Of a stretch of DNA of 64,000 nucleotides, positions 47,502 through 60,241 are shown piece after piece (the first letter of the stretch is position 1; each line of letters opens with the position of its first letter). The notes under the pieces were generated by a model that did no database searches, was not told the DNA's origin, and saw only the letters and a list, made by a program, of their open reading frames with translations. The translations under genes and the position numbers were made by a program. Location: the NCBI GenBank assembly GCA_003151155.1, contig PLWX01000256.1, forward strand, positions 22,347 to 86,346, written 5' to 3'. The DNA comes from Acidobacteriaceae bacterium. GTDB taxonomy: Bacteria; Acidobacteriota; Terriglobia; Terriglobales; Acidobacteriaceae.

Positions 47502-49388
47502 ATGCCGTCGTATCGCGCGTCTGTGGTTGGGCCTGTCGCTCTCGATAAAGTCTTACGGTTCGTCACTCTTGCACTCCTGGTTCCGGCAATGTTGTTCGCA
47601 CTCGCATGCGGCGGTGGCAGCTCTTCTACCACCACCACCGTCGGACCGGCGCCAACCTTCACCAGCACCGCGCCGCAGATCGCATCGGAAGGCATTCAGT
47701 ACAGCTACGCCATCACCACGACAACCACCGATAACAGTACGGTTACCTACACGATGACAACCGGCCCAACCGGTGCTGCGATTACAGGAAGCACGCTCAC
47801 ATGGACTCCGACGCACGCGCAGGCGCGCATTTCGAACGGCTTCACGATCACTGCAACCACCAGCAATAACGGCGTATTCACGCAGACGTTCAACATCACG
47901 CCGACCGGTAACATCAATGGCACAGCGGTTGACAATGCGGTGGCCGGCGGAACGCTTGTTGATTATCCGCAGGATATGAGCTCCGTGACGGTGGAAGTCT
48001 TGCTGCCGAACAACAAAGGTAGCTTCAATCGCCAGGCGGGGACGGGCGACGCCAGCGGCAATTTCACGATCCCGAATGTGCCGGCCGGAAATTACTGGTT
48101 GCATCTGCAGCGTATGGATAACGGAGCCGTCACCGACAACTATCTCTACACGTCGGCGAGCGACATTGATGCCGGACAGCTGGTCATCGGTCGGCCCGAC
48201 GCAGTTCGCGCGACGTCCGGGGTGACGATTGCTGCGCAGAATATTGCGCTGTCTGTCCCGGTGACCTCCAGTGATTCGATCGCGTGGGTCAGTCCTGACG
48301 CGAAGTCTAGCGGCGCGCCGGCGGGTGCTCCGGCGTCTCAGACCTATAGCGCTACCTTCCCACAAACCGGTGGGCTGATTAATAGCTCCAAAGGCGACAG
48401 TGGCTACCTGCTGCACTATACGACGTCAGGGCCTATCACCCGCGAAGTGGAATCTGAAACTTTTCCGTCACTGACGGAAACCAATGGGGGCACCGTAAGC
48501 TTAACGGGTTCCATGACGGCGAACACCGGATCGACCACCGACCCGGTGGTGAAAGTTTCCGAGTTCGATGCGGTAAACACTGCGATCCCCGGTTTTACCG
48601 GTCCGACGGTGAAAAACTTCACGATGTTTGACTCGGCCTACGACGGCAGCGACGGCTTCCTGCCTGCGAACCTCTATGCCGCGTCGGGTTCAACCCCCAT
48701 CCAGTTGGTCAAGATTCCGCTGGCCACGATTACGACGGACACGGACTTCGGCTCCATTCCTTATGGGCTGGTTACCAGCAAAGGAGTTCCGTTTGTTCAG
48801 TTCGAAGATTTAGGCTCGCGCAGCTTCAGCATCGGCGGCTCGAACTATAGTTTCCAGAACAACGGGCAGGTGACCATCACCAACGTGATTCCGAGTTCGA
48901 GCAACTCCACGTTTCCGGCGGTTGGCGAGCCGCTGAATTCGACGGTCGACGGGAAAGATTTCTTCACCAATCAAGGCAGCATCTCGGGGGCGCCGCAGAT
49001 CGCATGGGCCACGCCGACTTTTGGAGCGCCATCGTCGTACGAACTCACGGTCGTGAACCCTGCCACGCTCGGGGGGGCGAATCCGGAGATCCACTACTTC
49101 TATACGTTCTCGACCGGGGTAGCGATTCCGCCGGGGATTCTGAAGGCCAACACGTCGTATGTATTCATACTCCAGGCGATGCTCTTCCAGGCGAACAACT
49201 TCCAGGCAGCACCGTTCCGGATGGGAACGAACGCCGCATGGACCAGCGAGGTCTCTGCCGTGATGACGACCAACTCGACCGGCGCGGCAACCGTGCGCAA
49301 TCGCGCAGCAGCGTCAACCTCGCGGCGACAGGTGCTGGTCACTCCGGGTGCGAACGGCAAGCTCTCGGTCACGGTGACTAAGAAGTAA
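47502..49388 (+). CDS. exported Ig/carboxypeptidase-regulatory-like protein, probable lipoprotein
   Basis: The start is ATG 47502 (after AAAGGACA), not 47448; 628 residues. Signal with a lipid-anchor-like end (LALLVPAMLFALACGGGSS), then a Ser/Thr linker, a putative Ig fold of the He_PIG/cadherin kind (FTSTAPQIASEGIQYSYAITTTTTDNSTVTYTMTTGP ... LTWTPTHAQA), a carboxypeptidase-regulatory-like segment (NINGTAVDNAVAGGTLVDYPQDMSSVTVEV; GDASGNFTIPNVPAGNYWLHLQ) and a beta-rich C-terminus. Lipobox is weak (ALAC). Surface role likely; ligand unknown. Confidence 0.75.
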   Translation: MPSYRASVVGPVALDKVLRFVTLALLVPAMLFALACGGGSSSTTTTVGPAPTFTSTAPQIASEGIQYSYAITTTTTDNSTVTYTMTTGPTGAAITGSTLTWTPTHAQARISNGFTITATTSNNGVFTQTFNITPTGNINGTAVDNAVAGGTLVDYPQDMSSVTVEVLLPNNKGSFNRQAGTGDASGNFTIPNVPAGNYWLHLQRMDNGAVTDNYLYTSASDIDAGQLVIGRPDAVRATSGVTIAAQNIALSVPVTSSDSIAWVSPDAKSSGAPAGAPASQTYSATFPQTGGLINSSKGDSGYLLHYTTSGPITREVESETFPSLTETNGGTVSLTGSMTANTGSTTDPVVKVSEFDAVNTAIPGFTGPTVKNFTMFDSAYDGSDGFLPANLYAASGSTPIQLVKIPLATITTDTDFGSIPYGLVTSKGVPFVQFEDLGSRSFSIGGSNYSFQNNGQVTITNVIPSSSNSTFPAVGEPLNSTVDGKDFFTNQGSISGAPQIAWATPTFGAPSSYELTVVNPATLGGANPEIHYFYTFSTGVAIPPGILKANTSYVFILQAMLFQANNFQAAPFRMGTNAAWTSEVSAVMTTNSTGAATVRNRAAASTSRRQVLVTPGANGKLSVTVTKK

Positions 49389-49415
49389 GGTCAGAGCAAA
49401 TGAGGAAGCAGAGGG

Positions 49416-49442
49416 GCAAGCTTCGGCTTGCCTTCTCTTTTG
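49416..49442 (+). terminator. terminator of the Ig-like exported protein gene
   Basis: GGCAAGC-TTCG-GCTTGCC followed by TTCTCTTTT. Stable UUCG-type loop, 27 bp after the stop. Confidence 0.85.
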
Positions 49443-49684
49443 CGTGGTCGCAGCATATTCCACGAATCCCACTCTTCGGGGACATCCCTCGCCTTACGAG
49501 GGATAGGAGAATAGCGAGATTCGCCGTACGTTTGTCTTCGTCGCACTGATCTCCAAATTGAACTCAGTGGGGAGGTCGGTCATCGCGACATCCATACTTG
49601 GTTTCACTTCATGGGTCCAAGTTTTTCAGTATCCAGGTCACAGCAAAGTCCAAGTTTGAACCGCCGTTAGTTGCGCGGATTCAG

Positions 49685-49716
49685 AAAAGCCTCGGGAAAG
49701 TTTCCGAGGCTTTTTC
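49685..49716. terminator. bidirectional terminator after the YXWGXW gene
   Basis: AGCCTCGG-gaaagttt-CCGAGGCT with TTTT on the plus strand and TTTT on the minus strand. On the minus strand it follows the YXWGXW gene stop by about 40 bp. Confidence 0.75.
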
Positions 49717-49756
49717 TGTTGTTCCTTGAGTTCAGCTTGCAGACGAGCTGCTACGG

Positions 49757-50904
49757 CTAGTGGGGTTTTCCGCCCTGCTCGTGACTTGGAGGCGGGGCTG
49801 ACCGGGTCTGCATGTGTTGTTGCTGCTGCTCATGCTTCTGCGACAATTGCTGGGTCTGCTGCTGGTGCCGCTGCTCGACTTGTTGTTTCCTGGCATCATT
49901 GGCGTTCTGCTTGGCCAGTTGTTGATGTTCTTTATCTTGTCGGGCCTGCAGCTTGTCGCGCTCCTGGTTCTGTTTGGCATACATCTTTTCCTGCTGCTGT
50001 TGATACTTCTGGTCTTGCTTCGCATTCCCGGTGTTCGGAGGAGCAGGTCGATTGATGGCCGGAAGATCGTGGGGATGAACGTAGGTGTTGTTTCCCCGCG
50101 ATGGAGCAGATTCAGCTGTACGGGCGGGACTGGATTCAGTTCCCGGCCCACGACCGCGATTTGCCGGAGGGTTGTAGGCTCCGCCTGCGGATTTTGCCGG
50201 AACCGCACCTTCGCGCAATCCGCCGGGACGGGCGGTAGCAGCGATCGGCGGACGGCCATGGTTCTCCGAGGCCCTGAGTTCCCGATTCCCGCGCGCTGCC
50301 TGTATGTGTTCGGTCTGCGCTCCAACCGGGCCGATGTGACGCTCATGCATCGCCGATTCTTCTTGCGGCGAAGGTCGTGCGTCTATGCCACCGTGGCCGT
50401 TGTAGCTCACGTGGTTTTCGTTATTGATGGTGACGCGTTCGTTGTACACATTGCGAATGTTGGTCACATTGATGTTGTTGACGTCGCGGTTGTAGTAGAA
50501 GTGGTCTCCCTGCCAGCGGCCGCCTTCATAGCCATGGCCGAAATAGCCGAAGCCGTAGGAGATGCCGCCGTAGAAGCCTACCTGCGATCCCCAATAGCCC
50601 TCATGGAAGAAGAAAGCATTGCCTTCCCAACCCCACCACGGCGGGGTCCACAGATAGCCCACCTCGGGAGCCGTGACCCAAGTTCCAGGCACCCAGTAAT
50701 AATCGTCGCCATCGTTATCCCAGGCCCAATAGCCGGGGGTCCAGATGTAACCATCGCCGGGGCAGAGAGGCTGGTCGTAAACCGGCAGCGCCGGCGGGCC
50801 GAAGTTCACGGAAATTCCAACGCCGATCTGCGCAAAAGCAGTGGCGGAAAAGTGAGCATCACAAGCACGAATAACAATGAAGCTATCGATCGAGCGAGAC
50901 GCAT
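49757..50904 (-). CDS. exported YXWGXW/WXXGYW-repeat protein, frameshift in signal peptide
   Basis: The mature part has repeated Trp/Gly/Tyr motifs (GYIWTPGYWAWDNDGDDYYWVPGTWV, GYLWTPPWWGWEGNAFFFHEGYWGSQVGFYGG), then Pro/Gly-rich and Gln/Lys-rich low-complexity tails. The track frame from 50920 has a poor start (MERKYYASRSIDSF). The ATG at 50904, 8 bases after GGAGAGGAA, reads MRLARSIASLLFVLVMLTFPPLL, a clear signal peptide, but in the -1 frame relative to the rest. One missing base near 50847-50855 would join MLTFP to ATAFAQ. So the gene is either frameshifted or carries an indel error. Confidence 0.7.
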
Positions 50905-51258
50905 AGTATTTCCTCTCCATTCATCTCGGGTGCATTCCGGCCGCAGGGAACAGCGGCTGTGCCACGGAGGGCCGCAACTTAGGATTCATTGGATATCAAG
51001 GCCCGAGTCCCGAGATGCTCTTGCCTCGTAAGTAGTAACCCGGAAGTCCCAAAAAAGTCGGCCTTCGGGGAGCGGCGACAGTCTACTCCAAAGAGTTCTG
51101 TTGCGCCTTCTTCGGTGAAGCAGTGGGGAATTCAGGAAACTTGCAGCGACTGAATGCAGGAATCGAGGGACGAGCGTTGCGGGTTCGGACGACGCGTGTT
51201 TTATGATTCGCGCGCGAAGCCGAACAGCTGCGCAACCATTCGCGAGAGGAATCCCTGG
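50905..51258. other. 354-bp divergent intergenic region, nothing recognised
   Basis: Upstream of the YXWGXW gene (minus) and the DinB-like gene (plus). I see no clear promoter pair, hairpin or ORF; the track ORF reaching 51154 is upstream read-through of the DinB-like gene. Confidence 0.4.
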
Positions 51259-51804
51259 ATGAAATTCATCGTCACCTTCTTGTTCTTGTCATTCGTACTG
51301 GCCGCTTACTCGCAGGAGCCCGCCGCAGCGCCGAAGACCCCGGCGACTCTAAAAAGCGTCTTATTGCAGGAACTGCGCGAGACACACAACCAGAAAGATT
51401 GGTTCGTTTCCTCCAAGGAAGCGGTGGCGGGCGTCACCGCCGAACAATCCGGGTGGAAGGACGGCCACGGCAATCATTCTGTCGGACAACTGGCGTATCA
51501 CATCGCGTTTTGGGACCTGGAAACATTGGCCGAGTTCAAGGGCGAGAAGCACCCGAAGTTTGAAGGCAAGAACGACGACACCTTTGACAAATACGACCCC
51601 AAAGAATGGGACAAGACGGTCATGAAATTGGATATGGAGATGACCGAATGGGAAAAGGCCATCGAAGCCGCGGACGATGCGACGCTCCAGAAATGGGCGC
51701 CGACCATCGCTAAAATTGCGGAGCATCGGGCCTACCACATTGGCGAGATCGTGATGGTGCGCAAAGAGCAGGGTTCGTGGAACCCGGAGCAAGGCGTGAA
51801 GTAG
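51259..51804 (+). CDS. exported DinB-like protein
   Basis: The start is ATG 51259 (after CGAGAGGA); 181 residues with a signal peptide (MKFIVTFLFLSFVLAAYSQ). DinB/DUF664 four-helix fold: LLQELRETHNQKDWFVSSKEAVAGVTAEQSGWK, SVGQLAYHIAFWDLE (His) and AEHRAYHIGEIVMVRKEQGSW (His, His). These three His usually bind a metal. Export of a DinB-fold protein is uncommon but occurs in Acidobacteria. It lies 124 bp before the corrinoid protein gene; no functional link is evident. Confidence 0.8.
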   Translation: MKFIVTFLFLSFVLAAYSQEPAAAPKTPATLKSVLLQELRETHNQKDWFVSSKEAVAGVTAEQSGWKDGHGNHSVGQLAYHIAFWDLETLAEFKGEKHPKFEGKNDDTFDKYDPKEWDKTVMKLDMEMTEWEKAIEAADDATLQKWAPTIAKIAEHRAYHIGEIVMVRKEQGSWNPEQGVK

Positions 51805-51927
51805 GAATTGGCTGGGGGAAAGCGTGCAAACTGCGCAAATGTTCATTTGTCACAGACTTCCCTCCCCTGCGCCGCAATACAATCCGGCCTCAAGAATGCC
51901 AATCCACGCATTCCAGCGAGGTTCCAA

Positions 51928-52587
51928 TTGCACGACGAACTTCTTCGCGCCATGCAGCAGAGCGTGATCGACGGCGCTCCGACCACGGCGGCCCAACTTG
52001 CGCACGAAGCCATAGCTAAACAGCTCGATCTTCTCCACGTCATCACCCACGGCTATGCTTCCGGCATCTCTTTCGCGGGTGAACAGTACGGTTGCGGTGC
52101 GATGTTCCTGCCTGACCTGCTGGCCTGCGCCGAAGCCATGAAAGCGGCGATGTCGGTGCTCGAACCGGAACTTCGCAAACAAGGCACGCATCGTGAAACT
52201 CTCGGGCGGGTGGTGCTGGGAACTGCCAAGGGCGACATTCACGACATCGGAAAAAACCTCGTTGCAACCATCCTCGCAGCGAATGGATTCGAGGTCTTTG
52301 ACATCGGAACCAGCGCGTCGCCGGAGGCTTTCATCCACAAGGTTCGCGAGGTAGACGCGCAAATCATCGGCGTTTCTGCCCTTTTGACGACGACCATGGC
52401 GGGACAGAAGAGCGTGATCGAGGCGCTCGATCGCGAAGGCCTGCGACCGAAAGTGAAAGCCATCGTTGGAGGCGCGGCCGTGACCCGCAAGTGGGCGGAA
52501 GAGATTCACGCGGATGGATATGCTCGCAACGCGATGGACGCCCTCGAACTGGTGCGCAGCCTGGTAGCGCGGGCGGCGACCGCATGA
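51928..52587 (+). CDS. corrinoid (B12-binding) protein of a methyltransferase system
   Basis: The likely start is TTG 51928, after GAGGTTCC; the track's ATG at 51808 includes a stretch with no family match. About 219 residues: four-helix cap domain (LHDELLRAMQQSVIDGAPTTAAQLAHEAIAKQLDLLHVITHGYASGISFAGEQYGCGAMFLPDLLACAEAM), then a B12 domain with the lower-ligand signature DIHDIGKN (GTAKGDIHDIGKNLVATIL), and SALLTTTM and VGGAAVT motifs. It shuttles methyl groups between a substrate methyltransferase (next gene) and an acceptor. Its stop overlaps the next ATG (ATGA). Confidence 0.9.
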   Translation: MHDELLRAMQQSVIDGAPTTAAQLAHEAIAKQLDLLHVITHGYASGISFAGEQYGCGAMFLPDLLACAEAMKAAMSVLEPELRKQGTHRETLGRVVLGTAKGDIHDIGKNLVATILAANGFEVFDIGTSASPEAFIHKVREVDAQIIGVSALLTTTMAGQKSVIEALDREGLRPKVKAIVGGAAVTRKWAEEIHADGYARNAMDALELVRSLVARAATA

Positions 52588-54026
52588 GGCCCCAAGTGCG
52601 ACTGCTCGAACCGGCGACTATCGAGCGAATCCTCGCCGAAGCGTTTGCGCTGCTAATGGAACCGGGCGTCCGGGTTGGATCGTCAGACGCCATCGCGCTC
52701 CTGCAAGCGCAGGGCGTTGAAGTGAAGGAAGGCATCGCACATATTCCGGAAGCCTTGGCGCGCGTGGCGTTGGCTTCGGTACCGCGAGAGTTCTGGCTAT
52801 TCAATCGCGCCGGTGATCCGATGGTGCCCTACGGCGGAGACGCGGTGCATTTCGATCCCGGCTCTTCTTGCGTGCAGATGCTCGATGCGCAGTCGCAGGA
52901 AGTTCGCCGCGCTGTAACCGCAGACCTGGTGCGCATTGTGCAGGTCGCGGAGATGCTGCCGCAATACGCGGCCCAATCTACAGCCGTGGTTTGCAGCGAC
53001 TTGCCGCCGGAGATGGGTGATATCTACCGGCTGTCCGTGGTTCTGCGACATTCCAACAAGCCGATCGTCACCGGCTCGTTCTCTGCCACTGGCCTGCAAG
53101 GCATGATCGATTTGCTCATCGCGGATGCCGGTAGCGCAGACGCGCTTCGCGAAAAGCCGCGAGCGGTGTTCGATGTTTGCCCTTCTCCACCGCTGAACTG
53201 GTCGGAGTTCGGCGCACAGAATCTTGTAGAGCTGGCGCGTGCCGGCGTGCCGGCAGAGATTGTATCCATGCCATTGGCGGGTGGTGCGGCGCCGGTAACG
53301 CTCGCGGGTTCAATCACGCAGCACGCGGCAGAAGCGATTGCCGGCATCACGATTCATCAACTGGCATGCGCGGGTGCGCCGATCGTTTGGGGCGGAGCGC
53401 CGGCGATTCTCGACATGCGTACTGGAGGCGCGCCGATGGGGGCCATGGAGACGGCGATGCTCAACATGGGCTGCGCGGAGGTTGGGAAGTCGTTGGGTCT
53501 GCCGACGCACGGATACCTGGTCGCAAGCGATTCGAAACTGGTGGACGAGCAATGCGGAGCAGAGTCGGCGCGTTCCGCAGTGCTCGGTGCATTGACGGGT
53601 ATCAATATGATCTCGGGCGCCGGCATGCTCGATTCGCTGGCCACATTCTCGGTGGAGAAACTCGTCCTCGACGCGGAATCCATCGCATCGGCACAGCGGT
53701 TGGTTAGCGGCGTAGAAAGTTCTTACTCGTCATTCGCTATCGATGCCTTTGCAAAGGCGGGCCTGAGCGGAGAGTTTCTCAAGCTGCCGGAGACCCGCAA
53801 ACTTTTCCGCCAGGAACAACACATCCCTTCGAGCGTGATCGACCGTGCGTCACGCCAGGATGGTGCTCAGAAAGATGCCCTCTCTCGAGCCGCCGATCGC
53901 GTAGAAGAACTGGTGGCGCAATATCGGATGCCCGAGATTGGTGGAAGTGTACTCGACAAATTCCAAGAGATCCTGGAACGTGAGAGCGGACGACGCTGCG
54001 CGAAATCCGCTGCCGGTTCAAGGTAG
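52584..54026 (+). CDS. MttB-family methyltransferase, non-pyrrolysine
   Basis: The start is ATG 52584, overlapping the corrinoid stop; 480 residues. MttB-superfamily TIM barrel with RLLEPATIERILAEAFALLMEPGVRVG near the start and GGAPAILDMRTGGAPMGAMETAMLNMGCAEVGKSLGLPTHGY in the middle. No in-frame TAG: the pyrrolysine-coded amber of archaeal MttB is absent, so it belongs to the non-Pyl branch that includes glycine betaine, carnitine and proline betaine demethylases. It transfers a methyl from a quaternary amine to the corrinoid protein. No activase (RamA) or THF methyltransferase is in view. Confidence 0.88.
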   Translation: MRPQVRLLEPATIERILAEAFALLMEPGVRVGSSDAIALLQAQGVEVKEGIAHIPEALARVALASVPREFWLFNRAGDPMVPYGGDAVHFDPGSSCVQMLDAQSQEVRRAVTADLVRIVQVAEMLPQYAAQSTAVVCSDLPPEMGDIYRLSVVLRHSNKPIVTGSFSATGLQGMIDLLIADAGSADALREKPRAVFDVCPSPPLNWSEFGAQNLVELARAGVPAEIVSMPLAGGAAPVTLAGSITQHAAEAIAGITIHQLACAGAPIVWGGAPAILDMRTGGAPMGAMETAMLNMGCAEVGKSLGLPTHGYLVASDSKLVDEQCGAESARSAVLGALTGINMISGAGMLDSLATFSVEKLVLDAESIASAQRLVSGVESSYSSFAIDAFAKAGLSGEFLKLPETRKLFRQEQHIPSSVIDRASRQDGAQKDALSRAADRVEELVAQYRMPEIGGSVLDKFQEILERESGRRCAKSAAGSR

Positions 54027-54617
54027 GATTTCGATAGTCAGAACGTCATTCGAGATCAGCGGATATCCCGTGTGGGTCGCCGGATCAAGACCATCGCCCT
54101 TGCGCATCAACAACCGGTGCGTCTCCACATAGAGCTGATATTTTCCGGGCTGTTCGGGAAGACGAACCGAACGAAACCAGCCATCGGGATCGCCATCGAA
54201 GCGATACGGTAAGCGTACCGGATCGGTATTCAGCGTGACGTAGCGCCATTTGCAGCACGACGCATTCTCCGCGGCATAGGATAATTTTCGCGTTGCGCTG
54301 CCGTCGGAAAGGTAGGCGAGGTTCGCGATGTCGGCGGCGTTGCTGGCCTCCAGAACCTCGAGTTGCCACATCCGGGCCGACTTTGCCGTGTAGAACTCCT
54401 GGAAGCGCAACGTGTCTCCGCGATGAAACTTACGCGTGTCGCCAGCCGTTTTGATTTGCAATTCGACGCCCCACGGATTGTCATTCACCGCGGCATCGTG
54501 TTCGCGTTCGAACTGGGTCTTCGAGCAGGCCAGCATCGCGGCTAAGAATCCCACCATGAACGAAACCAAAAAACAGCGGAGAAGCAAGCCCAGAGCGGCT
54601 TGGCGAGCAGCGGTCAC
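54018..54617 (-). CDS. exported hypothetical lipoprotein
   Basis: GTG 54617 lies 8 bases after GGAGG and fits better than the track's 54644 start; 199 residues. Signal peptide with lipobox-like end (CFLVSFMVGFLAAMLACSKTQ). The mature domain is beta-rich (GVELQIKTAGDTRKFHRGDTLRFQEFYTAK; YRFDGDPDGWFRSVRLPEQPGKYQLYVETHRLLMR) with Cys-Cys in ASCCKWRYVT. Family unknown. Its stop overlaps the end of the convergent methyltransferase gene by 9 bases. Confidence 0.65.
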   Translation of the reverse strand: MTAARQAALGLLLRCFLVSFMVGFLAAMLACSKTQFEREHDAAVNDNPWGVELQIKTAGDTRKFHRGDTLRFQEFYTAKSARMWQLEVLEASNAADIANLAYLSDGSATRKLSYAAENASCCKWRYVTLNTDPVRLPYRFDGDPDGWFRSVRLPEQPGKYQLYVETHRLLMRKGDGLDPATHTGYPLISNDVLTIEILP

Positions 54618-54703
54618 GTTGTGCACCTCCATTCGAATAGACACCGCTGCAACTTCACAAGTGCCGAGTTTCTGCCGCGGCCGAAGACGTGTACTCTAAT
54701 CCG

Positions 54704-55147
54704 ATGTCACGCGAATATCCGGAAAGGCCGCTGCTCGGCGTCGGCGGCGTAATCATTCACGAAGGACGCGCGCTTATCGTGCGTCGGGCCAGCGAACCAC
54801 TGAAAGGCGAGTGGTCGATCCCGGGTGGCTTAGTCGAACTTGGAGAGAAGCTAGTCGACGCGGTGCAGCGCGAGGTGCAGGAAGAAACCGGATTGATCGT
54901 GGAAGCGGGCGAGGTGCTGGAGTTGTTCGACAGCATCTGGCGCGACAAGGATGGACGATGCCAGTATCACTATGTCCTGGTCGATTATCTTTGCCGCGTG
55001 ACCGGGGGAGAACTGCAGGCAGCTACGGATGTGAGCGATGCGCGTTGGATCGCGGCCGACGAGATTGAAAACTTCGGTCTGCGCGCACCGACGATCGGTG
55101 TGATACGCAAAGGCTTCGAAAGAGAAAAGGCTCATCGCTCTGCGTAG
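54704..55147 (+). CDS. Nudix hydrolase
   Basis: The start is ATG 54704 (MSREYPERPLLGVGGVIIHEG), not GTG 54689; 147 residues. The Nudix box is complete: GLVELGEKLVDAVQREVQEETGLIVEAG, with the REVQEE metal-binding core. Preceding GEWSIPGG and following YHYVLVDYLC fit ADP-ribose or dihydroneopterin-type Nudix enzymes. Substrate not determined. A hairpin overlaps its 3' end on the opposite strand. Confidence 0.9.
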   Translation: MSREYPERPLLGVGGVIIHEGRALIVRRASEPLKGEWSIPGGLVELGEKLVDAVQREVQEETGLIVEAGEVLELFDSIWRDKDGRCQYHYVLVDYLCRVTGGELQAATDVSDARWIAADEIENFGLRAPTIGVIRKGFEREKAHRSA

Positions 55148-55160
55148 CAGCGACGAGCCT
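55117..55160 (-). terminator. terminator on the minus strand beneath the Nudix 3' end
   Basis: As minus-strand RNA, AGGCUCGUCGCU pairs with AGCGAUGAGCCU (12 pairs, one G-U) and is followed by UUUCUCUUUC. On the plus strand the same position is an A-C mismatch with no T-run, so it acts for minus transcripts. It lies about 95 bases after the small ORF at 55255. Confidence 0.75.
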
Positions 55161-55254
55161 ATTCCGGTGTACTGTTGAGTTTGGCTAGAGGCGTTACGCT
55201 TGCGCGGCCTCAGCAAAACCCTACGGGGTTTGCGAGCACTTCGGGCGCGACGCC
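55161..55254 (-). ncRNA. possible structured RNA / 3' UTR
   Basis: Between the 21-codon ORF and its terminator the minus strand reads as dense stems: GCAAACCC-CGTA-GGGTTTTGC, and GAGGC ... GCCTC. Sequence composition differs from a typical spacer. It could be a structured 3' UTR or a small RNA. Inference only; no family recognised. Confidence 0.3.
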
Positions 55255-55320
55255 CTAAGCCTCAGCCACCTCACCAATCTTCAGGTTCGAAGATCTACCA
55301 CAACTGTCAGACAAGGTCAT
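55255..55320 (-). CDS. 21-residue small ORF with consensus SD
   Basis: Too short for the ORF track. Reads MTLSDSCGRSSNLKIGEVAEA then TAG, from ATG 55320. The ribosome site is exceptionally strong: GGAAGGAGGTGG with 5 bases to the ATG. It lies 63 bp downstream of the exported His-rich protein gene and about 95 bp before a terminator, on the same strand. It might be a peptide (leader, toxin or RiPP precursor) or a translation artefact; no partner enzyme is nearby. A single Cys is present. Confidence 0.4.
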   Translation of the reverse strand: MTLSDSCGRSSNLKIGEVAEA

Positions 55321-55383
55321 CGGACCACCTCCTTCCCGGTGTAAACGCAGATTAGCAAAAGGCAGAGTAGCCCGCAACTTCCG

Positions 55384-55947
55384 CTACTCACCCATGTAGA
55401 GCACGTGTACGTACGTGCCCAGCCGGGTGTTGTAAGCAATGTAGTAGCCGGGATCGTCGGGATCGTCGTAAAGCACGATGTCGTCCGAATCCCACAGCCA
55501 GCCATCGGTATAGCCCACGTCATACGGTGCGACGCCGAAATAAAATCCGTTGAACCAGAAGCGACCCGGTCCACCGCCGCCTAATCGCCAAATGTGACTC
55601 GGGCCGAATTCGCCGGGGAAGTGTCCATGTTCCCAGGGCCGATCGAGATGGTGGTGGGCATCTCCGCCCGCGTGCCCGATCCACTCATCATTGCGGGCGT
55701 GCACATGAGGATAATCCGGATGCCCCGGCTGATCGGCGAAGCCACGTCCGCCACGTTGTTCGCCAGCCCGCGGTGCCGGCATCTGCGCACGACCGGGCGC
55801 GGGACCATGTTGCGGAATGTGGCCGCCACCGAATTCTGCATGGCCGCCTTGCGCTGGCCTTCCACCACCTTCATGTTGTCCGCGCTGCGCGTACGCGATT
55901 GCGAATAACAACAACACGGTTGAAACAAGTGCAAAAACCTTTCTCAC
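55384..55947 (-). CDS. exported His/Gly-rich protein
   Basis: The start is GTG 55947 (RKVFALVSTVLLLFAIAYAQ), 5 bases after GGAGG; the track's 55998 is upstream. 187 residues. Signal cleaved after AYA. Mature: Gly/His-rich region (HEGGGRPAQGGHAEFGGGHIPQHG), then HVHARNDEWIGHAGGDAHHHLDRPWEHGHFPGEFGPSHIWRLGGGGPGRFWFNGFYFGVAPYDVGYTDGWLWDSDDIVLYDDPDDPGYYIAYN, an acidobacterial surface-protein type. May bind metals. Divergent from the hemerythrin operon. Confidence 0.7.
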   Translation of the reverse strand: MRKVFALVSTVLLLFAIAYAQRGQHEGGGRPAQGGHAEFGGGHIPQHGPAPGRAQMPAPRAGEQRGGRGFADQPGHPDYPHVHARNDEWIGHAGGDAHHHLDRPWEHGHFPGEFGPSHIWRLGGGGPGRFWFNGFYFGVAPYDVGYTDGWLWDSDDIVLYDDPDDPGYYIAYNTRLGTYVHVLYMGE

Positions 55948-56149
55948 GATTTCCTCCACTCTCGATTCAGATCGAATGCAGAGGAAGTGGGATGCCAAAC
56001 CTCGGAGTGAACGGGCGCCATTTGCACTTCTTTACGCAGACCGGGCATCGAGCAATTTCTGGGCTCCATCCAAAATTGCGTGACTTGAAAGCCGCGCTGA
56101 CCGCATCTCGGCGGGTCTCTTCTGCGTATACTGTTGACGGAGGTTTTCA

Positions 56150-56854
56150 ATGAGTTCTCTCTCGCGCCGTGATCTGCTTCACAAGGCACCTCTCGCCCTT
56201 ACAGGACTCGCACTCACGACCTCGGTGTACGCGGAGGAGAAGAAGGATGAAACGGAAGTCACCGCCACCGAAGACCTGATGCGCGAACACGGCGTGATTC
56301 GCCGCGCGCTGCTGGTGTACGCGGAACTCGTGCCGAAATTGCGCTCCGATCCAGGTGCGATCGATCCGGCGGCGCTGAATAAAACGGCGAAGCTGTTTCG
56401 TAACTTCGGCGAGGACTATCATGAGCGCCAACTCGAGGAGCAGCACATCTTTCCGACGATCCGAAAAATGAATAAGCCTGCACTGACGCACTATGCAGAC
56501 GTGCTTACGGCGCAGCACCAGCGTGGCCGCGAGGTCACCGATTACGTGCTCGCAGTGACGGGCGGCAAGATCGGCAAGCAGCACGCCGACGAGTTGGCGA
56601 AGATCTTCGACAGCTTCACCCTGATGTACCAGAACCACGCGGCGCGGGAAGACACGATCATCTTCCCTGCCTGGAAAAAGAATTACACGAACAAGCAGCT
56701 CGATGAGCTCGGCGATCAGTTCGAAGAGATCGAGCACAAGACGTTCGGCAAAGATGGTTTCGACGACGCCGAGGAGACGATCAGCAAGATCGAAGAGACA
56801 CTGGGCTTTGCCGACATCGCGCAGTTCACGCCGCCCGCTCCGCCGAAGCCATGA
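56150..56854 (+). CDS. Tat-exported hemerythrin-domain protein
   Basis: 234 residues. Tat-like signal (MSSLSRRDLLHKAPLALTGLALTTSVYA; RRDLL twin Arg). Hemerythrin HHE-type ligands: EDLMREHGVIRR, NFGEDYHERQLEEQHIFPT, AQHQRGREVTDYV, and YQNHAAREDTIIFPAW. Hemerythrins bind a diiron site and sense or carry O2 or nitric oxide. SD GGAGG. First of three overlapping genes (ATGA with doxX). Export of a hemerythrin-like protein suggests a periplasmic redox role. Confidence 0.9.
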   Translation: MSSLSRRDLLHKAPLALTGLALTTSVYAEEKKDETEVTATEDLMREHGVIRRALLVYAELVPKLRSDPGAIDPAALNKTAKLFRNFGEDYHERQLEEQHIFPTIRKMNKPALTHYADVLTAQHQRGREVTDYVLAVTGGKIGKQHADELAKIFDSFTLMYQNHAAREDTIIFPAWKKNYTNKQLDELGDQFEEIEHKTFGKDGFDDAEETISKIEETLGFADIAQFTPPAPPKP

Positions 56855-57282
56855 GCGTGCTGCATCGCATCGTGCATTCCGACGCACCGCGCGCGACTCT
56901 GCTCGTACGCCTGCTGGTCGGCTGCGTCTTTCTTAGTGAAGGCATCCAGAAATTTCTCTTCCCGCAGGCACTCGGCGTCGGCAGGTTTATCAAGATCGGT
57001 ATTCCTGCACCGCAATTCTTCGCGCCTTTCGTGGGTGCGGTGGAAATCATCGGTGGCGCGATGCTGATCGTGGGGCTGCTTACGCGACTGGCATCGGTTG
57101 CGCTGATGATCAACATCAGCGTCGCGATTCTGACCACCAAGCTGCCGATGCTCGCGAAGTCTGGATTCTGGGCGACAGCCCATGAAGCGCGCGTGGATTA
57201 CTGCATGCTGCTGGGCACGATCTTTCTGCTCATGGTGGGCGCCGGCCCTCTCTCGATCGACGATAAAATCGAAGCCGGATGA
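56851..57282 (+). CDS. DoxX-family membrane protein
   Basis: 143 residues with four membrane helices: LLVRLLVGCVFLSEGIQKFLFPQALGVGRF, APFVGAVEIIGGAMLIVGLLTRLASVALMINISVAI, and MLLGTIFLLMVGAGPLSID. The pattern GEGIQKFLFP and G-VE-GG is DoxX-like. DoxX proteins act with redox partners in membranes; the partner here could be the upstream hemerythrin. Coupled by ATGA on both sides (56851-56854 and 57279-57282). Confidence 0.88.
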   Translation: MSVLHRIVHSDAPRATLLVRLLVGCVFLSEGIQKFLFPQALGVGRFIKIGIPAPQFFAPFVGAVEIIGGAMLIVGLLTRLASVALMINISVAILTTKLPMLAKSGFWATAHEARVDYCMLLGTIFLLMVGAGPLSIDDKIEAG

Positions 57283-58418
57283 ACGCCGCACCAACGCCGG
57301 CCGAAACGCGCAAACCTTCTCTCGGCGAGCTCGCACTGGTATTTCTTAAGCTCGGCACGACCGCCTTCGGCGGACCGGCAGCGCACATCGCGATGATGCA
57401 CGAGGAATTCGTGCGCCGGCGTAACTGGATCACGGAAAAAGATTTTCTCGACCGCCTCGGCGCCGCCAACTTAATTCCGGGACCGAGTTCGACCGAGATG
57501 GCCATCCACATCGGATTGCTGAAGCGTGGCTGGCGCGGACTGCTGGTCGCGGGAGTGTGCTTCATTCTTCCGGCAGCCATTCTCGTGGGATTCATCGCCG
57601 CGATTTATGTTCGCTTCGGAGAACTGCCACGTGTAGCGGGTGTGTTGTTTGCGGTAAAGCCGGTGGTGATCGCGATCATCGTGCAAGCCTTCTGGACATT
57701 GAGCAAGACGGCAGTGAAGAACTGGTGGCTCGGGATCATCGGCGTGCTCGGAGCAGTGGCATACGCGTTTCGCGTGCATGAGTTGTTAATCCTGCTTGGC
57801 GCAGCAGTACTGGCGTCGGTTCCGCTGTGGACCAAGCGTGCTGCCGTGCTATGGATGGCCACGATTCCAGTCGCCGCAGGCGTCACCGGACAAATGCCAG
57901 TCACGCTCCCCCGACTCTTTCTGACATTCCTGAAAACCGGATCGGTGCTGTTTGGCAGCGGCTACGTCCTGCTGGCATTTCTGCGCGCTGACTTCGTGGA
58001 TCGCCTGCACTGGCTTACGCAGAAACAATTACTCGATGCCGTCGCGGTCGGCCAGATCACGCCGGGACCGGTGTTTACGACTGCGACTTTCATCGGTTAC
58101 GTCGTGGCCGGATCGCGAGGGGCGGCCGTCGCAACCGCGGCAATTTTTCTTCCGGCATTCGTGCTGGTCGCGATTAGCGGGCCGCTGGTCTCACGCATTC
58201 GCGAATCCAAGGTCGCCTCGGCGGCGCTGGATGGAGTGATCGTGGCTTCGCTGGCGTTGATGGGGGTGGTCGCGTGGCAACTTGGTCGAAGTGCGATTGT
58301 GAACTGGCAGACGGGGTTGATCGCTATCGTGAGTGCGGTGTTGTTGTTGCGTTATCGGACGAATTCGGCGTGGCTGATTTTGGGAGCGGCGATGGTGGGC
58401 CTGGTTTGGCGACCGTAA
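57279..58418 (+). CDS. chrA: chromate transporter, long-chain CHR family
   Basis: 379 residues with two CHR repeats: GELALVFLKLGTTAFGGPAAHIAMMHEEFVRRRNWITEKDFLDRLGAANLIPGPSSTEMAI in the first half, and LFLTFLKTGSVLFGSGYVLLAFLRADFVDRLHWLTQKQLLDAVAVGQITPGPVFTTATFIG in the second. About ten membrane helices. ChrA exports chromate and may help oxyanion or proton balance. Third gene of the hemerythrin-DoxX-ChrA operon. Chromate specificity is by homology only. Confidence 0.9.
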   Translation: MNAAPTPAETRKPSLGELALVFLKLGTTAFGGPAAHIAMMHEEFVRRRNWITEKDFLDRLGAANLIPGPSSTEMAIHIGLLKRGWRGLLVAGVCFILPAAILVGFIAAIYVRFGELPRVAGVLFAVKPVVIAIIVQAFWTLSKTAVKNWWLGIIGVLGAVAYAFRVHELLILLGAAVLASVPLWTKRAAVLWMATIPVAAGVTGQMPVTLPRLFLTFLKTGSVLFGSGYVLLAFLRADFVDRLHWLTQKQLLDAVAVGQITPGPVFTTATFIGYVVAGSRGAAVATAAIFLPAFVLVAISGPLVSRIRESKVASAALDGVIVASLALMGVVAWQLGRSAIVNWQTGLIAIVSAVLLLRYRTNSAWLILGAAMVGLVWRP

Positions 58419-58427
58419 AACGCGAAA

Positions 58428-58613
58428 GCGCGATGGAGTGAAGTCCATCGCGCCTTTACCGCAGGGGCTAAAGCCCCACATTTTTTCAGCCTCTGAATCA
58501 CCCGGCTGAAGCCGGGTGCTACCTCAAAGCAAAGTCAAAGCAAAATCCTGATGACCGCTTGAGGATGCTGGGCTCAAGCCCGACTCCTCTTGTTGACGTT
58601 GGCCTTAAGGCCA
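58428..58613. repeat. cluster of GGGCTNNAGCCC palindromes
   Basis: Five perfect palindromes in 186 bp: GCGCGATGGA-N6-TCCATCGCGC (58428-58453), GGGGCTAAAGCCCC (58464-58477), CCCGGCTGAAGCCGGG (58501-58516), GGGCTCAAGCCC (58570-58581) and TGGCCTTAAGGCCA (58600-58613). Four share a GGCY-NN-RGCC core. This repeat type is common between acidobacterial genes as I recall. The first may also terminate chrA weakly. Confidence 0.75.
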
Positions 58614-58625
58614 GCGCTTCCACCG

Positions 58626-58889
58626 CTAAAACGGTTTTCGCGGAATGATCTGGTCATCGTTGATGAAGAACTGTGCCGAGCACATCTGCGAGCCGCAGAT
58701 GACGGGCAGCAGTCCCGCAACCTGTTTTCTGGTGATCAACCCCAAGGTGCCGCACGTCGGACACGAGAGCACTGCCCAATAAGGATCGATCGATTCCCCA
58801 ACTTCGCCCGCGTTTTCCAAAACAAAGATGGTGCCAGGCTCCATCTGTTCGGGGATCCATTCGTTCAGGATACTGATTTCCGCGATCAT
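58626..58889 (-). CDS. small zinc-ribbon-like protein
   Basis: 87 residues from ATG 58889, with SD AAGGGGGAAA. N-terminal acidic segment (MIAEISILNEWIPEQMEPGTIFVLENAGEV), then LSCPTCGTLGLITRKQVAGLLPVICGSQMCSAQFFINDDQ. The four Cys (CPTC ... CGSQMC) form a plausible zinc site. No signal peptide. It lies 45 bp downstream of the MerR regulator on the same strand and may be co-transcribed. Family not recognised beyond the zinc-ribbon pattern. Confidence 0.7.
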   Translation of the reverse strand: MIAEISILNEWIPEQMEPGTIFVLENAGEVGESIDPYWAVLSCPTCGTLGLITRKQVAGLLPVICGSQMCSAQFFINDDQIIPRKPF

Positions 58890-58934
58890 CGTGTTTCCCC
58901 CTTGTCGCCGCTTTCTGGGGCGGCGAGTGAATGG

Positions 58935-59405
58935 TTAAGAAGCTTTACGCCGCCCAGCTTTTTGTTTGGACGACACTGCCGATTGCGCGTGCTTCTTGCC
59001 AATACGTGCCCGCAGCCGCTGCACCGTGTCGGTCAGGCACACGGAAAGAATCGGCTGCTTCGAATTCTTGAGGATGTTGATGACTGCGTGCGCGGAATCT
59101 TCCAGGTACAGATTCCGGCCGTCGGTGAGCAGGTGGTACTCGGCGCCGTCGCTCACGGTTTCCACCAACCGTTTGCCGAGTTCACGCTGCAGGAAGCGCA
59201 TCACTTTGCGCACGCGCTGCAACGAGAATCCGCGCTGACGTAGCTCACAGAGAACGGCGACCTCGGCGAGGTCGTCCATGGAATAGAACCGCTTGTGCCC
59301 TTCGCGGGCGGGGACCACGATGCCGCGTTCATCCCACCACTGCAACTGACGGGCGGTGATGTCGGTCAGTGCCACGACGTCCCTGGATGAGAACCGACTG
59401 TTCAT
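58935..59405 (-). CDS. MerR-family transcriptional regulator
   Basis: 156 residues. N-terminal winged HTH (FSSRDVVALTDITARQLQWWDERGIVVPAREGHKRFYSMDDLAEVAVLCELRQRGFSLQRVRKVMRFLQREL) is MerR-like; a C-terminal domain follows (VETVSDGAEYHLLTDGRNLYLEDSAHAVINILKNSKQPILSVCLTDTVQRLRARI) with a Lys-rich tail. Two cysteines, so metal sensing is possible but not shown. The promoter and operators at 59414-59478 suggest autoregulation. The zinc-ribbon protein gene follows. Confidence 0.88.
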   Translation of the reverse strand: MNSRFSSRDVVALTDITARQLQWWDERGIVVPAREGHKRFYSMDDLAEVAVLCELRQRGFSLQRVRKVMRFLQRELGKRLVETVSDGAEYHLLTDGRNLYLEDSAHAVINILKNSKQPILSVCLTDTVQRLRARIGKKHAQSAVSSKQKAGRRKAS

Positions 59406-59413
59406 AACCCCGT

Positions 59414-59452
59414 CGATACAAAAACATTCTGTATCGAAAATGTTTGAAACAT
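59414..59452. promoter_or_regulatory. nested operator palindromes of the MerR gene
   Basis: Three overlapping inverted repeats: CGATACA-N9-TGTATCG (59414-59436), AAACATT-N10-AATGTTT (59422-59445) and ATGTTT-g-AAACAT (59440-59452). They span from the transcription start to the -10 of the MerR promoter. Confidence 0.65.
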
Positions 59453-59478
59453 AATATCGGTGGGTTGTGCGCTGTCAA
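59451..59478 (-). promoter_or_regulatory. sigma-70 promoter of the MerR gene
   Basis: Minus strand: TTGACA, 16-bp spacer, TATTAT. The -35 is perfect and the -10 matches 5 of 6. Leader of about 38 nt to the ATG at 59405. Confidence 0.75.
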
Positions 59479-59596
59479 GGCGCAATGCGGGTTCGCCTGT
59501 GGAAGACTACTCCCGCATTATTCGATTGGACGTATGAACGAAACGGAGGGAAGTGAATGGATGATGAAATTGGAGGGCTCCGAGAGAAACCCAGAA

Positions 59597-59797
59597 TTAT
59601 CCGTCGCCTACGAAGTGCACGATCTCGAGTTCGTCGCCATCTTTTAACGTCGTCGCTTCCCAATCGCACGAGGAACAATTTCGCGCTTCAGTTATACCGC
59701 AACCTGATCGGAGTTTCATAGCAAGCTGCTCGACGAAATCGATGAGGGTCGACACGTTGGCGACTTCTCTTCCGTCACCATTGCTCTCGAGGCGCAT
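59597..59797 (-). pseudogene. thiS: decayed thiS (sulfur carrier protein)
   Basis: The ORF from 59842 ends in TLKDGDELEIVHFVGDG, a ThiS C-terminus; ThiS should end in GG, here GDG. The start, MRLESNGDGREV, is ThiS-like from 59797. The middle is scrambled in this frame (LRSGCGITEARNCSSCDW), but the next frame reads SDQVAV*LKREIVPRA, matching the ThiS core (VAVELN-REIVPRxxW). Thus one inserted base (near 59707), a GAA-to-TAA nonsense change and one lost base (near 59671) restored the frame by compensation. No other thi gene is in the window. Confidence 0.78.
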
Positions 59798-59845
59798 ATA
59801 TCGATAGTAAATCGGCTTGGGCCGCGGATTTTCCACGCGCAATCG

Positions 59846-60241
59846 TCAGGACTTCGGGTTTGGGAATTCTTCTACGTGCATCTCTCCCTTGCGCCCGAAG
59901 TAGACCACCTTCCGTCCCATTAGAAATGCCCAGTAACTGATGACGCCTGCTGCGGTGGCTCGCTTCACGAATTCCGGATATCGAACTCGGTCGGCCTGCG
60001 CCCCGCGTATTGCAGCAACCAGGTCCGCCGCGGAGTAGTGCTCATTCACGAATTCGCGGGACAAAATCATCTTCTCCCGATGCGTGCTGCCGTCCTTCAT
60101 GTAGAACGTCTCATCCGCAGAAGCGAAATCGACAAAATACGACTCGACTCCTGCTTCGGAGAGACGACTAACGACCTCCGGAAAAGTTAGTTTGCCCGAC
60201 TGCGTCGCTGTCATTACGTCGTGAAGTTCTTTGCTATCCAT
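59846..60241 (-). CDS. DUF1398 (YbcV-like) protein
   Basis: The track's start at 60484 is antisense read-through; ATG 60241 follows TCAGGAGC and gives 131 residues: MDSKELHDVMTATQSGKLTFPEVVSRLSEAGVESYFVDFASADETFYMKDGSTHREKMILSREFVNEHYSAADLVAAIRGAQADRVRYPEFVKRATAAGVISYWAFLMGRKVVYFGRKGEMHVEEF. This is DUF1398/YbcV. Function unknown in all members I know; not membrane-bound. Not obviously linked to the neighbours. Confidence 0.85.
   Translation of the reverse strand: MDSKELHDVMTATQSGKLTFPEVVSRLSEAGVESYFVDFASADETFYMKDGSTHREKMILSREFVNEHYSAADLVAAIRGAQADRVRYPEFVKRATAAGVISYWAFLMGRKVVYFGRKGEMHVEEFPNPKS

Follow-up and report, generated by a model that had tools for sequence, protein, structure and literature searches.

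Among the described systems closest to the locus analysed here are some that combine an MttB-superfamily methyltransferase with a corrinoid protein, and the nearest solved structures are those of MttB (PDB 7xcl/7xcn) and MtgB (9yce/2qne). For MtgB of D. hafniense, a docking study predicted residues Y94, N199, R309 and H345 as betaine contacts (PMC6855144). In Ruegeria, a dual role of MtgC and MtgD in betaine demethylation and methionine synthesis has been demonstrated experimentally (PMC12478193), and reactivation of TM0268 of Thermotoga requires TM0269, according to a title cited in PMC7857596.

MttB-family genes are widely annotated in acidobacteria of peat and sediment and are read as trimethylamine or quaternary-amine use (PMC11264602). 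In Slate River sediments, mttB is common in MAGs of Acidobacteriae and Anaerolineae (PMC11264602), and expression of mtaB and of genes for methoxy demethylation has been described for Acidobacteriota of Stordalen Mire (PMC10805028). In the openly licensed literature we found no description of the substrate pocket of the clade reported here or of the RamA-poor state of its acidobacterial members.

Architecture and family assignment

The locus lies in a stretch of 64,000 nucleotides (the window) from a soil bacterium of the Acidobacteriaceae (G000; assembly GCA_003151155.1), whose genome is 93% complete with a contamination of 5.33%. An initial annotation, made from the sequence alone, had proposed a corrinoid protein with a DIHDIGKN motif, overlapping by ATGA an MttB-type enzyme without pyrrolysine; all of this was confirmed (Table 1). 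The ATG of mttB sits within the mttC stop (GCATGAGG), neither reading frame has an internal stop, and no in-frame TAG precedes the stop of mttB itself, which is TAG (54024-54026). The corrinoid frame is open from 51808 to 52587, and the TTG at 51928, with a GAGG purine run directly 5' to it, is the likely start.

Table 1. Positions in the window of the two genes and of the codons discussed in the text
Feature	Position	Strand	Remarks
mttC-like gene, corrinoid (B12-carrying) protein	51928..52587	+	219 aa; likely TTG start
mttB-like gene, non-pyrrolysine MttB-superfamily methyltransferase	52584..54026	+	480 aa; overlaps mttC by ATGA
His105 codon, within the cobalt-ligand motif DIHDIGKN (mttC)	52240..52242	+	direct sequence; His105 is the lower ligand
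Ser94 codon (mttB)	52863..52865	+	aligns with MtgB Tyr94 and MttB Gly110; Ser in 89/90 clade rows, 1 alignment gap
Cys199 codon (mttB)	53178..53180	+	aligns with MtgB Asn199; Cys in 90/90 clade rows
His309 codon (mttB)	53508..53510	+	aligns with MtgB Arg309; His in 90/90 clade rows
Ala314 codon (mttB)	53523..53525	+	pyrrolysine-334 position of M. barkeri MttB; Ala in 76/90, Gly in 12/90
Ser344 codon (mttB)	53613..53615	+	aligns with MtgB His345 and MttB Tyr364; Ser in 90/90 clade rows

The mttC product matches PF02607 (B12-binding_2, 56.7 bits) and PF02310 (B12-binding, 96.3 bits) above their cut-offs and, in the PDB, MttC (7xcn chain M, E 7e-49). Its best NCBIfam model is that of MtgC (NF047995), at 205.6 bits and under the cut-off of 310. 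The mttB product matches PF06253 (MTTB; COG5598) over residues 3-466 at 249.9 bits (cut-off 25), the only match to this profile in the genome; this significant full-length match and the cognate adjacent corrinoid protein with its DxHxxG...SxL motif place it in the MttB superfamily. Against the PDB it matches 7xcl (MttB, E 2.7e-53) and 9yce (MtgB, E 5e-44). It scores 321.8 bits against the pyrrolysine MttB model (TIGR02369), under the cut-off of 525, and the in-frame TAG at position 334 that marks the pyrrolysine trimethylamine methyltransferase is replaced by an alanine codon. The family is an ordinary one, while the clade is uncharacterised and has a notable deficit of partners. As predicted from these matches, the methyl-transfer chemistry of the pair is well supported; its acceptor, reactivation route and substrate class are what we infer below.

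The pair is preceded by a gene for a DinB_2-domain protein (Pfam) and followed, on the opposite strand, by an ORF with no Pfam match and then by a NUDIX protein gene. In acidobacterial relatives the only conserved neighbour is mttC, save at a few loci with an activation protein, RamA or a homocysteine methyltransferase. No Rfam match and no riboswitch was found within 48000-60000, and a scan for promoters and terminators around the pair gave no more than chance.

Relatives and distribution

An alignment of five sequences was used to scan GTDB genomes, and 80 loci were kept (53-70% identity). They come from acidobacteria, many of peat bog, fen and palsa, and from Chloroflexota; one or two records carry the label of some other group. 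At 30 of the 33 acidobacterial loci, the window included, mttC adjoins mttB, and the DxHxxG and SxLLT motifs are intact in all 30. The pair is well beyond chance, given 80 related loci in two phyla and this adjacency. The three exceptions (L055, L056 and L065) form a subclade of mttB with no adjacent mttC within the sequence examined, L056 being close to a contig end. Among other relatives, the mttB of L016 (genome G059, contig C530) contains an in-frame TAG and is probably a broken gene or a sequence error; pyrrolysine use in this acidobacterium was considered and rejected, the TAG lying away from the pyrrolysine position.

In a maximum-likelihood tree whose references were MtgB, the S. meliloti protein 4yyc and pyrrolysine MttB, the acidobacterial and Chloroflexi sequences form one group of 54 rows (support 100/98) far from all three references. 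The tree program marked the connections between the long branches of the references as unsafe, and we drew nothing from them. The Chloroflexi sequences form a single group (100/98), as do 25 acidobacterial rows including that of the window (99/98); L077, G026, G005/L060 and L046/G055/L050 fall outside the latter. Seven of 61 nearby genomes match the MttB protein: that of the window and six others. Close matches, at 61-100% identity, occur in five of them (the window's genome, G005, G026, G029 and G055) and distant ones in the other two. The complete genome of the same genus, G001, has no match to the protein.

In Chloroflexi, an extra MttB paralogue lies upstream at 42 loci, and subsets of loci have MtgA-like, RamA and homocysteine-methyltransferase genes in their flanks. 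Five (L095, L098, L100, L107 and L109) carry two tandem copies of the clade's mttB, accompanied by a more distant paralogue of mttB or by two; this arrangement possibly reflects related substrates or a stepwise demethylation.

Reactivation of the corrinoid protein

As the initial annotation had observed, neither a methyl acceptor nor an activase is encoded in the window. Its suggestion that RamA be sought elsewhere in the genome was fruitful in part: a single RamA gene is present, but in a different corrinoid cluster on contig C284 rather than beside the pair. This cluster (locus L019, 6890-12290, minus strand) comprises, in this order, mtaB, mtaC, ramA, DUF1638 and a gene for an MtaA-like URO-D protein, and it suggests that this acidobacterium uses methanol by a corrinoid-dependent route. 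In Phaeobacter, DUF1638 and RamA-like proteins have been linked to B12 reactivation (PMC5764234).

The distribution of RamA was surveyed with PF14574 (RACo/RamA) in 50 genomes holding the clade, 28 acidobacterial and 22 of Chloroflexi, most of them MAGs without stated completeness. RamA was found in 5 of the 28 acidobacterial holders against 22 of 22 Chloroflexi, with a Fisher p of ~1e-9 that is indicative only, since the census genomes are related. It adjoins the pair in two of the five acidobacterial carriers, G074 (L046) and G088 (L077). None was found in four holders of 98-100% completeness (G005, G026, G029 and G055); G005 is seemingly the genome of L060, to judge by an identical protein, and is thus shared by the census and the four-genome set.

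RamA-type activases are able to serve several corrinoid proteins. In the window's genome, the pair could depend on the C284 cluster for its RamA and perhaps also for the MtaA-like URO-D protein, an explanation that we regard as rather unlikely. It draws on the make-up of this cluster, in which MtaB (520 bits), a corrinoid protein, RamA, DUF1638 and a URO-D protein are all encoded, and on a related RamA beside DUF1638 in three other holders, G064, G070 and G087 (with another corrinoid gene also adjoining in G070). However, C284 is a separate contig of an assembly with 5.3% contamination, and a RamA of this type is no general answer because 23 of the 28 acidobacterial holders are without RamA.

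Methyl acceptor and a proposed link to methionine synthesis

A search for a THF methyltransferase, likewise suggested by the initial annotation, gave no MtgA-type enzyme. PF00809 finds FolP and MetH only, both in the window's genome (93% complete) and in the four near-complete holders (98-100%; FolP of G029 in two pieces), so that no dedicated methyl-corrinoid:THF methyltransferase is found in these five genomes. In the window's genome, MetH is encoded on C51 with homocysteine, folate and B12 domains, interrupted by the contig end; a PF02965 domain lies on C153, and C278 encodes a fusion of homocysteine methyltransferase with MTHFR (754 bits, cut-off 453). Near-duplicate MetH 5' ends at L020 (C51) and L022 (C3), both at contig ends, suggest a strain mixture in the assembly, for which 5.33% contamination is reported. 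A particular type of MetH tied to the pair was also considered and rejected: the divergent MetH of the holders (PF02965 at ~160 bits, not ~400) occurs in 42 of 51 matching nearby genomes and, as the norm of the family, provides no link to the pair.

In a few basal relatives, genes for MetH-like parts are linked to the pair. At L046, mttC and mttB are followed by the gene of an activation protein, by ramA and lastly by a homocysteine methyltransferase gene in convergent orientation; L024 and L050 show the same order minus ramA, and at L077 the activation protein follows mttB and ramA is also present. The homocysteine methyltransferase of L024, L050 and L046 belongs to PF02574 and is on the opposite strand. 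In a profile comparison the activation protein could be aligned to the activation domains of MetH (hhalign probability 89.5%), and it matches PDB 1j6r (E 1.6e-9), which was deposited as Thermotoga methionine synthase and is TM0269. By gene content, these loci thus encode homocysteine, corrinoid and activation parts resembling those of MetH, and MttB takes the place of the folate part. The stand-alone MetH-activation-like proteins, such as those at L024:11530-12282 and L046:11480-12181, have no significant match in Pfam or NCBIfam and escape the models of both.

The explanation that we favour, tentatively and at somewhat less than even confidence, is that the pair is a reduced two-component corrinoid methyl-transfer module of an uncharacterised non-pyrrolysine MttB clade, which may feed methionine/folate chemistry through MetH. 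MttB would bind a methylated substrate, and Co(I) on MttC would accept the methyl group, a half of the scheme that homology strongly supports. Since most acidobacterial holders, including the four near-complete ones, have neither RamA nor a dedicated MtgA, the methyl would most likely be handed to housekeeping methionine/folate enzymes, that is, to MetH domains or to homocysteine via a PF02574 methyltransferase. For MttC oxidised to Co(II), the most likely rescue would be through a route of the MetH type or through an unrecognised activase; in the window's genome, the RamA of the Mta-type cluster on C284 might act on it as well. In favour of the proposal are the families and intact motifs of the pair, the separate clade with its shared pocket, the purifying selection on mttB, the RamA census, the four near-complete holders with MetH, the MetH-like modules of basal relatives and the dual role of MtgC and MtgD in Ruegeria. 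Several observations weigh against it. A direct tie between the pair and MetH is absent, the holders' type of MetH being that of the family at large; the homocysteine-methyltransferase neighbour is limited to two lineages and to the opposite strand; and the census consists mostly of MAGs without stated completeness. Moreover, the stand-alone activation protein was not found in the window's genome, G005, G026 or G029, and it is without this protein that we infer transfer to MetH in the window's organism.

In a bolder form of the proposal, which we consider unlikely, the MttB module would work independently of RamA, pass its methyl group to homocysteine (or THF) by way of MetH-type parts and have a pocket unlike that of any characterised MttB-superfamily enzyme. 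Such a module would in effect be a methionine synthase whose methyl donor is a methylated compound of the soil and not methyl-folate.

Predicted substrate pocket

From the missing TAG, the initial annotation had assigned the enzyme to the betaine/carnitine demethylases. This assignment is not supported: MtgB lies outside the clade, and each of the four residues predicted to contact betaine in MtgB is replaced, by S94, C199, H309 and S344. These four residues are virtually invariant across 90 members from two phyla, so that the clade has a fixed pocket of its own. The pocket, whose reading depends in part on the published docking model, argues against glycine betaine and names no substrate.

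It is accordingly improbable that the enzyme is a conventional demethylase of the MtgB/MtcB type acting on glycine betaine or carnitine, with its MtgA and RamA overlooked. Membership of the same superfamily, the missing TAG, the MtgC model as best NCBIfam match of the corrinoid protein, and the MtgA-like and RamA genes of Chloroflexi relatives would all fit such an enzyme. Yet the distant 4yyc retains all four MtgB residues, despite a weaker profile match, where the window's enzyme retains none; the tree shows a long separation from MtgB, and four near-complete holders are without MtgA or RamA. It is very improbable that the acidobacterial pair is a relic without partners, decaying or left from past methyl transfer: patchy distribution, absence from G001, a stepwise loss of linked genes and the three loci without adjacent mttC (L055, L056 and L065) would agree with this, but strong purifying selection on mttB (dN/dS 0.06-0.14 in eight acidobacterial pairs, and ~0.12 between the window and two relatives, with synonymous sites near saturation), intact corrinoid motifs at 30 of 33 loci and the invariant pocket make decay unlikely.

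The absence of RamA and MtgA from near-complete genomes raises a testable question about the route of corrinoid reactivation and the destination of the methyl group, and the answer bears on predictions of methylotrophy from metagenomes. The pocket of the clade likewise argues against a plain transfer of trimethylamine or quaternary-amine substrates to these genes.

Comparison with described systems

The pair resembles the MtgB-MtgC-MtgA system of Desulfitobacterium and Methanolobus in combining an MttB-superfamily enzyme with a corrinoid protein and in doing without pyrrolysine. It differs in its replaced betaine contacts, in the lack of a detectable MtgA in the genome and in a deep split in the tree. 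With the MttB-MttC trimethylamine system of Methanosarcina it shares the fold family and the cysteine of a CPxxPL segment, and the profile score is slightly higher for MttB than for MtgB (262 vs 231 bits); unlike Methanosarcina MttB, the window's enzyme has alanine at the pyrrolysine position, and the residues corresponding to Gly110 and Tyr364 are replaced.

Ruegeria MtgBCD(E), which joins betaine demethylation to a split methionine synthase (PMC12478193), is similar in having a corrinoid core tied to methionine synthesis, and some relatives of the pair have a PF02574 neighbour. In contrast, no separate pterin protein MtgD was found in the window's genome or in the near-complete holders, acidobacterial holders are usually without RamA, and a full-length MetH coexists with the pair. 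As for the split methionine synthase TM0268/TM0269 of Thermotoga (1j6r), a TM0269-like protein is not found in the window's genome, whereas at L024, L050, L046 and L077 such a protein follows mttB.
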